NCBI RefSeq assembly: GCF_000337215.1
Contig: NZ_AOHZ01000095.1
Span: 1 to 40,892, forward strand
DNA: 40,892 nucleotides
Source of the DNA: Natronolimnohabitans innermongolicus JCM 12255
Lineage (GTDB): Archaea > Halobacteriota > Halobacteria > Halobacteriales > Natrialbaceae
Direction: 5' to 3'
Shown: piece by piece, positions 16,282-17,424 of the stretch
How the letters are laid out: each line of letters begins with the position of its first letter
How positions within the stretch are numbered: position 1 is the stretch's first letter
Position numbers and translations under genes: made by a program
The notes under the pieces: generated by a model
The model's input: only the letters and a program-made list of their open reading frames with translations
Told to the model about the DNA's origin: nothing
Databases searched by the model: none

Positions 16282-16457
16282 GAGAGTGCGTAGGGACGGC
16301 GCAGGAATAGTGACTTCGGTCTCCGACACGCACGGAGACGACACGAGGGCAACTCGAGTCGCCGCCACCCCCCAGTATTTCGTCGTCGGCCGTCGAATCC
16401 CACCGTATGCGACTCTCGACGCCACCGCTCGTAATCGGGTTCCTGCTGTTCGTGATA

Positions 16458-16886
16458 TGAATTTTGAGCGCACACCTGCGTCTTCAGGCGCAGGTCGAGC
16501 GGTAGGCCCAATGGAACGTCCGGCGTCGAAAGCCGACATGGATTTCGACCGCAATCGTTTTGTTGTGGCCCGACGTAACATGAAGTGCTACGAATACCGT
16601 GAGATGCCGTCCCCGAACCACAAGGGGAAGCGGACCAGCGGTGGTTCGCACGGCGATGACATGGTATTCGACGGGGCCTGTTTGACCGGGCCACAGCCCT
16701 ACACGAGGGAGGAAACGAGAGTTCCTCCGGTATCAAGCGAGAGCTTGGCTCTCGCGGACCGTCGGAAGACTGTGTCTTCCGAGATGCTGCCGGTTCCCTC
16801 TGAGTGCGGGCTGGAACCTCGAACGCCACACTCGGCGGAAATCCGATGGTCGGATTCCACGTCTTTCAGGGCGTGGAGGAGGTCAA
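16458..16886 (+). mobile_element. IS200/IS605-like non-autonomous mini-element
   Basis: About 430 bp with no transposase frame. Near the left end, 16474-16495 is a 9-bp hairpin with a TTCA loop (ACCTGCG/CGCAGGT plus a G-T and a C-G pair). Near the right end, 16856-16877 is an 8-bp hairpin (TCCACGTC/GGCGTGGA), followed by GGAGGTCAA at 16878-16886. This layout, subterminal hairpins without terminal inverted repeats or target duplication, is that of IS200/IS605 elements. The right end resembles positions 59-89 of this window. In haloarchaea similar MITEs are known as PATEs. The left boundary is uncertain by a few nt. It splits a small membrane-protein gene. Confidence 0.7.
16705..16886 (+). ncRNA. 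Candidate omega-RNA/sotRNA-like structured RNA
   Basis: Consecutive perfect stems: 16708-16728 (7 bp), 16737-16755 (8 bp, 3-nt loop), 16762-16782 (9 bp, 3-nt loop), 16792-16818 (6 bp), 16840-16856 (7 bp, 3-nt loop), then the element-end hairpin 16856-16877. Sequence read through them has no conserved protein. TnpB-associated omega RNAs, called sense overlapping transcripts in Halobacterium, come from this end of IS200/IS605 elements, and their guide is the flank just past the end, here from 16887. No tnpB is present in the element, so it would be an orphan. Transcription is not shown. Confidence 0.5.
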
Positions 16887-16977
16887 CCCCATTCCCGTCT
16901 TACCGCCGCTCGTCGGAACGACGATCGGGATCGTCCTCCTGCTCGTCGGCCTGTTCCTCCGATTTCTCGGCGTGTGA

Positions 16978-17186
16978 ATCGGTCGCGAGAGCGATCACGC
17001 GTCGCTGTCGGCTGCACCATCGGCTGTTTCGAGTCGCCTCGAGCGGTTGGGGTGGTGTGCTCGAGGGAGGTTTGGCCGCTGGGGCGGGTGGCGGGTCGCG
17101 ATGCGAACGGCCGAGCGGGAGGGGTGAAAACATTCGAGAAATCTCGCGCCGCTACGCGTCGCTCGTCGACGTAGTCGTCGTAGAAG
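16978..17186. other. Gene-free stretch
   Basis: No coding region, RNA gene or clear repeat is supported here. Open frames crossing it are rich in R and S and look like noncoding high-G+C sequence. Confidence 0.5.
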
Positions 17187-17207
17187 CGCCGAGAGGGGGA
17201 TTTGAAC
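17187..17207 (-). repeat. Copy of the tRNA-Ser 3' end (att-like)
   Basis: Positions 17187-17207 match 17340-17360, the T-arm and acceptor 3' end of tRNA-Ser, in 20 of 21 positions and in the same orientation, 153 nt apart. Duplication of a tRNA 3' end is the mark left by tyrosine-recombinase integration. No integrase remains between the copies, so an old or collapsed element is likely. Confidence 0.55.
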
Positions 17208-17273: not shown

Positions 17274-17341
17274 CGTTTTCCAGCGACGTGATTGACTCGC
17301 ACCGCTATGCGGTGCTCGTCGGGAATTGTCGCTGGAAAACG
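17274..17341. repeat. 14-bp perfect inverted repeat next to tRNA-Ser
   Basis: CGTTTTCCAGCGAC at 17274-17287 and its exact complement at 17328-17341 enclose 40 nt that contain a second hairpin, GCACCGC-TAT-GCGGTGC (17299-17315). The right arm touches the 3' end of the tRNA and supplies TTTT on the tRNA strand, so it may serve as its terminator or be a small mobile repeat. Confidence 0.6.
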
Positions 17342-17424
17342 CCGAGAGGGAGATTTGAACTCCCGAGTCCGTGAGGACAGCAGATTTCGAATCTGCCGCC
17401 TTGGCCGGGCTAGGCTATCTCGGC
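17341..17424 (-). tRNA. tRNA-Ser(CGA)
   Basis: 84 nt reading GCCGAGATAG...CTCTCGGC on the minus strand. The acceptor stem GCCGAGA/TCTCGGC is perfect. The anticodon stem is GCAGA/TCTGC with loop TTCGAAA, anticodon CGA at 17387-17389, decoding UCG. A long variable arm (TCC...GGA) and T-arm GGGAG-TTCAAAT-CTCCC are as expected of type II tRNA-Ser. CCA is not encoded, and there is no intron. A T-rich promoter element is at 17448-17455, 24-31 nt upstream. Confidence 0.95.

Follow-up and report, generated by a model that had tools for sequence, protein, structure and literature searches.

The window analysed here is a stretch of 40,892 nucleotides from Natronolimnohabitans innermongolicus JCM 12255 (contig NZ_AOHZ01000095.1), and all features described lie on its forward (+) strand unless otherwise stated. 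A gene encoding a 46-residue membrane protein (MRLSTPPLVIGFLLFVI/PIPVLPPLVGTTIGIVLLLVGLFLRFLGV) is interrupted within this window, its 5' part lying at 16407-16456 and its 3' part at 16887-16977. Each part corresponds to a portion of the joined protein, an uninterrupted version of which occurs in approximately 24 relatives among the family genomes, with 83% identity within the same genus. Alignment of the empty site with these uninterrupted homologues, together with copies in the same genome and across the family, delimits a non-autonomous IS200/IS605-type element at 16457-16886. The comparison yielded an element length of 430 bp and no target duplication. Since the split isoleucine codon is ATC or ATT in relatives, the empty site is best read as GTGAT^CCCCATT, which would assign A16457 to the element and C16887 to the host; a slide of one base would be possible on sequence alone, but an A directly follows TGAT in every other copy. 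The original prediction had placed an omega-RNA-like hairpin array at 16705-16886 with a guide starting at 16887, and both the 3' boundary and the guide start agree with the uninterrupted homologues. The target motif TGAT (16453-16456), presumed to be the TAM, forms the last four nucleotides of the 5' gene part. By analogy with the ISDra2 reRNA (PMC8612924), the would-be guide comprises the first 16-20 nt of the 3' gene part (CCCCATTCCCGTCTTACC). Further downstream, a 24-nt direct repeat (92%; 17184-17207 and 17337-17360, 153 bp apart) corresponds to one end of a tRNA gene (17340-17424, - strand) and resembles an integration scar.

Inspection of open reading frames revealed no tnpA, tnpB or any other transposase gene within 16457-16886. 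The left end carries a 7-bp hairpin (16474-16495) of the same type as in tnpA-tnpB elements on contigs C106 and C23, with a stem that is retained though its sequence differs among copies. The right-end hairpin (16857-16876), which is the terminal hairpin of the original prediction, is present in the covariation alignment and is also seen in tnpB-linked elements, as is the sequence GGAGGAGGTCAA located at and directly after it (16875-16886). Both ends align with the near-terminal palindromes of tnpA-tnpB elements L116 and L117, and terminal inverted repeats are absent. The element is therefore a palindrome-associated transposable element (PATE) by the criteria of PMC3119063, being short, transposase-free, dispersed in multiple copies and bounded by IS200/IS605-type ends without target duplication.

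The same genome contains at least six copies, including a complete one on contig C34 and broken copies at contig ends in seven other cases (C45, C71, C110, C111, C47, C72 and C46), as expected for a repeat that breaks the assembly. Across the family, DNA-level matches were detected in 44 of 125 genomes spanning many genera, and in one genome (G073) the PATE scaffold model matched 21 times, mostly on the two secondary replicons. Every inspected copy lies directly after TGAT, among them 18 copies in two genomes whose 18 flanks, and hence guides, all differ. Plasmid carriers include Natronorubrum bangense, Natrinema pellirubrum, Natrinema sp. SYSU A 869 and Natribaculum breve, in which the position of the PATE is mostly without annotation. 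On the Natrarchaeobaculum sulfurireducens plasmids (NZ_CP024046.1, NZ_CP027032.1) a PATE-like stretch, to which the match at G037:C2:144656-144864 (L080, G037:C2:143000-146500) corresponds, falls in a region annotated as a proline racemase family protein. With up to two mismatches, the guide of the N. innermongolicus element matched only the element itself in its own genome. At three mismatches there were 34 genomic matches compared with two for a reversed control pattern, and the exact TGAT-guide sequence was absent among these 34. A search of a phage collection returned a single 35-base match only.

In order to evaluate the predicted hairpin array, hairpins with perfect Watson-Crick pairing (stems of 6 or more, loops of 3-8) were counted within 16705-16886. 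Four were found, with stems of 7 bp (16708-16728), 8 bp (16737-16755), 9 bp (16762-16782) and 7 bp (16840-16856), and three of the four have the predicted 3-nt loops. Five stems of 7, 8, 9, 6 and 7 bp had been proposed, and only the 6-bp stem was not recovered with these settings. By comparison, 1000 dinucleotide shuffles averaged 0.37 hairpins and 441 same-size background windows of the contig averaged 0.59; the maximum was 3 in both sets, and none reached four. Furthermore, the folded stretch 16705-16906 had a minimum free energy of -90.7 compared with -77.0 +/- 4.3 for shuffles (z -3.19; 0 of 200 as low), in agreement with the claim that the density exceeds chance. A reading of the hairpins as DNA-level structure only, serving TnpA on single-stranded DNA, or as a chance cluster, is very improbable. 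The ends of IS200/IS605 elements do work as single-stranded DNA hairpins, but known elements use just two end hairpins in this way, while many internal helices of the PATE covary; a chance cluster is excluded by the shuffles, the background windows and the fold z-score.

The prediction that the hairpins form a scaffold holds for the array, with the exception of the 8-bp and 9-bp hairpins. These two, each with a 3-nt loop, constitute a 52-nt insert (16732-16783) in the apical loop of the central domain P2, which alignments A2 and A3 place in a minority of copies only, and are accessory rather than core. Pairs of perfect hairpins of differing sequence, with stems that stay paired, occur at differing scaffold points in other loci (L110:608-911, L051:1501-1810 and L052:1501-1810), and a tnpB-linked locus (L145:1324-1557) likewise carries an inserted pair. 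Double-hairpin insertions into scaffolds are thus recurrent.

Covariation was assessed in an alignment (A3) of 33 distinct PATE copies covering 16585-16886, using a 69-pair structure that contains a pseudoknot. Across the 33 copies 96.5% of cells were paired, a measure on which the structure has an advantage, since the window sequence and the consensus were among the sources used to draw it. Stronger evidence is provided by double changes: 23 of the 69 pairs were changed on both sides, giving 124 double-changed cells. None of 500 shuffles matched any covariation measure, a count that is not a probability because the copies share history; when partners were slid by 1-3 columns, a control that retains this history, pairing fell to 30-53%. 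Compensatory changes among copies, on which the case for a structured RNA hinged, are therefore present. The covarying structure begins at approximately 16591, within an element that begins at 16457, indicating that the 5' boundary of 16705 given in the original prediction was too short.

The 5' portion of the structure is a PATE-specific RNA domain (16591-16670) in which a long stem, H0 (16591-16598 with 16663-16670), encloses two hairpins (16611-16627 and 16630-16649), with compensatory changes in all three (helices 1-4). No DNA match to the body of these helices was found in tnpB elements, which points to covariation acquired, most likely, once the genes had been lost from the PATE. Downstream, the loop strand TTGACC (16682-16687) pairs with GGTCAA (16881-16886), which is the right-end motif, to form a pseudoknot in which 99% of cells are paired and U-A is replaced by G-C in three copies (GTGACC with GGTCAC). 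This arrangement resembles the loop/right-end pseudoknot of haloarchaeal omega-RNAs (PMC12558985). Covariation was also observed in helices 8-11 of the multi-branched central domain P2 (16694-16813) and in helix 13, the hairpin P4 (16840-16856), which is common to tnpB-linked ends. G-U variants are common among the covarying internal helices. Conservation is mostly 0.8-0.97 from 16590 onward and approximately 0.4 in the flanks.

These observations bear on whether the PATE is a passive deletion derivative, moved by TnpA only, in which the scaffold is a fossil of a tnpB parent without RNA function. PATEs have been described as IS605-type elements with a deleted core (PMC3119063), and the ends alone should be enough for TnpA. 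This reading is nevertheless unlikely, given that TnpA needs neither the internal helices nor the pseudoknot, and the internal helices that it does not need covary as well, beyond both shuffles and slid controls. The compensatory changes fall within the PATE lineage, including H0, H0a and H0b of the PATE-specific body, and the interval between the left end and the scaffold has drifted more than the scaffold itself. The element retains the guide-RNA scaffold of its parent's TnpB, kept under selection on the RNA fold, both parent genes having been lost.

Homology to the RNAs of tnpB-linked elements was examined with an Infernal covariance model (R1) trained only on 27 tnpB-linked right ends of the same IS type. 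R1 aligned from its first to its last position (1-157 of 157) with 16672-16886, scoring 61 bits (E-value 4.5e-18), and recovered almost all other PATE copies tested. Its only other matches in the 40.9 kb were the left-end hairpin and positions 1-89, the latter being a partial match (22.6 bits) to a further element of IS200/IS605 type, of which the contig start leaves just the right end (GGATTCCTCCGTGTTCACGCGGAGGAGGATGTCAA). A reciprocal model (R2), built from 39 PATE copies, identified in the same genome the scaffolds of three tnpB genes, on contigs C31, C23 and C106, with 73, 59 and 56 bits respectively, and all other tnpB loci scored 39 bits or less. The proposed resemblance to the scaffold of TnpB omega-RNAs is hence supported by the two models and by covariation. 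The PATE scaffold is unlike the tnpB-linked scaffolds in its central domain, and so these TnpBs may not necessarily accept it.

All three tnpB genes singled out by R2 are preceded by TGAT, and their elements share left-end and right-end types (GGAGGAGGTCAA) with the PATE. The elements on C106 and C23 encode both tnpA and tnpB, and that on C31 encodes tnpB only; the TnpA is an intact Y1_Tnp protein. The candidate TnpBs contain a Cas12f1-like TNB domain, align with solved TnpB/Cas12f chains over the RuvC region and retain the motifs GVDIGEA, LEDLT and ADxN. Four other tnpB types of the genome (L014, L016, L018 and L019) were rejected as cognates, having a weaker scaffold match and matching Rfam sot0042 instead. 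A tnpB located beside a PATE in genome G081 (L087, G081:C26:89000-92500) was also rejected as a parent, since it belongs to a different, L019-type IS inserted into that PATE. Of the 125 family genomes, 73 contain TnpB genes detected at an E-value of 1e-60 or better. When a threshold of 60% identity or more was applied, such a TnpB occurred in 22 of 36 PATE genomes compared with 25 of 89 others (Fisher p 0.001), leaving 14 of 36 PATE genomes without one. The co-occurrence is weakly significant after permutation within genera (p 0.036), for which part of the genus labels were inferred.

Two further readings can be weighed against the copies and the candidate proteins. Domestication as a regulatory RNA, with single copies guiding a possibly inactive TnpB-like protein in gene regulation in the manner of TldR, a TnpB-like protein with such a role, is extremely improbable: guide-only loci would be the natural partner of such proteins, but the PATE is multi-copy and mobile with sites that differ within one genome, and the candidate TnpBs retain their RuvC motifs. 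A decoy or antagonist, in which the orphan RNA titrates TnpB from the guides of the helper and limits the helper transposon without homing, is improbable. Up to 21 copies per genome compared with few tnpB genes would suit such a role, as would additional hairpin inserts that could change activity, and similar functions have been proposed for circular omega-RNAs (PMC12558985); TGAT and the guide geometry are, however, intact in every inspected copy, as for an active guide.

We consider it probable, overall, that the locus is a gene-less PATE, with ends recognisable by TnpA and a full omega-RNA scaffold, that is moved by TnpA in trans, has its RNA loaded by TnpB in trans and is maintained by homing. 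In ISDra2, TnpB uses an RNA from the right end with a flank-derived guide, and its TAM is the insertion target (PMC8612924). ISDra2 TnpB has been proposed to cut the donor joint, leading to repair that restores the element (PMC8612924), and TnpB action has been described as a gene drive in plasmids (PMC11870625). For the PATE, we infer an equivalent cycle in which TnpA from tnpA-tnpB elements of the same genome would move the element next to TGAT, and a PATE transcript would carry the 3' flank as its guide. A TnpB expressed from another locus (candidates C31, C106 and C23) would take up this transcript and cleave TGAT-guide sites that lack the element, whether these arise by excision or lie on a sister chromosome. 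The break would then be repaired with the occupied copy as template, which would restore the PATE and amount to a gene drive for a guide-only parasite. The DNA-side requirements for this cycle are present, namely a TAM-like TGAT, a guide matching the inferred empty site, the scaffold, and trans-encoded candidates for TnpA and TnpB. A promoter and terminator scan based on sigma-70, a model unsuited to archaea, returned nothing.

PATEs and omega-RNAs are each already known, and no report describing PATEs as conserved omega-RNA carriers was found in the searchable literature. Gene-less elements that share their ends with TnpB elements are mentioned in bacterial studies, and the claim to novelty is lowered for this reason. 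It is conceivable, albeit rather doubtful at present, that guide-only transposons (TnpA ends and an omega-RNA, no protein, and TnpB hijacked in trans for drive-like retention) form a widespread archaeal class including the PATE family, unlinked HgcC copies and P. abyssi sRkB/sRkC. If this were the case, many guides (up to 21 per genome) would program a single TnpB, representing a natural multi-guide array. Should the proposed cycle itself hold, the TnpB-driven homing unit could be split, with a parasite needing ends and a guide RNA only, and natural orphan guides would be at hand for work on TnpB in trans. This would explain the persistence and spread of gene-less IS605-type elements in haloarchaea and would suggest a likely function for archaeal non-coding RNAs of unknown role (HgcC-like).

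Comparison with Rfam at gathering threshold across the whole window identified tRNA only. The sotRNA model RF02656 scored 17.4 bits at the locus against a gathering score of 88, with no cis tnpB to overlap, and sot0042 gave a weak match. HgcC (RF00062) matched 16761-16895 at 31.4 bits (E 1.9e-5), below its gathering score of 50; the element has the same GGAGGAGGUCA end and differs in the central domain. The HgcC model matches IS200/IS605 right ends at 13 places in the genome, below the cut-off, which suggests that HgcC may be an omega-RNA family. HgcC RNAs of T. kodakarensis are transcribed, two of the five having no transposase gene at their locus (PMC4247193). In P. abyssi, expression is known for sRkB and sRkC, short dispersed repeats with a relationship to the 3' end of an OrfB (TnpB) gene, and two of the P. 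abyssi repeats have their own promoter and were detected by Northern blot, though they were not read as guides (PMC3124441). HgcC and sRkB/sRkC provide earlier examples of such RNAs being expressed without a tnpB.

The PATEs of Haloquadratum walsbyi (PMC3119063) share with the element the absence of transposase, IS605-related near-terminal palindromes, the lack of terminal inverted repeats and of target duplication, and a multi-copy distribution. Some were read as fused ends after core deletion, in a study that predates TnpB guide RNAs (PMC3119063); in contrast, the body of the element described here is a conserved, covarying omega-RNA scaffold. As in the tnpB-linked omega-RNAs, reRNAs and haloarchaeal sotRNAs (ISDra2, PMC8612924; H. 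salinarum, PMC12558985; Rfam RF02656), the 3' end of the scaffold is the right end of the element, the guide extends into the flank, a loop/right-end pseudoknot is formed and the TAM is the insertion target, and at the DNA level the boundary, guide and TAM correspondences are all present at the locus. The element differs from these RNAs in having no cis tnpB, an added PATE-specific 5' domain and, in a minority of copies, the double-hairpin insert. A TnpB gene drive has likewise been described for insertion sequences in plasmids, where RNA-guided cutting of the empty site favours the occupied copy (PMC11870625); in that case the guide and the nuclease reside on one element, whereas the PATE would split them.
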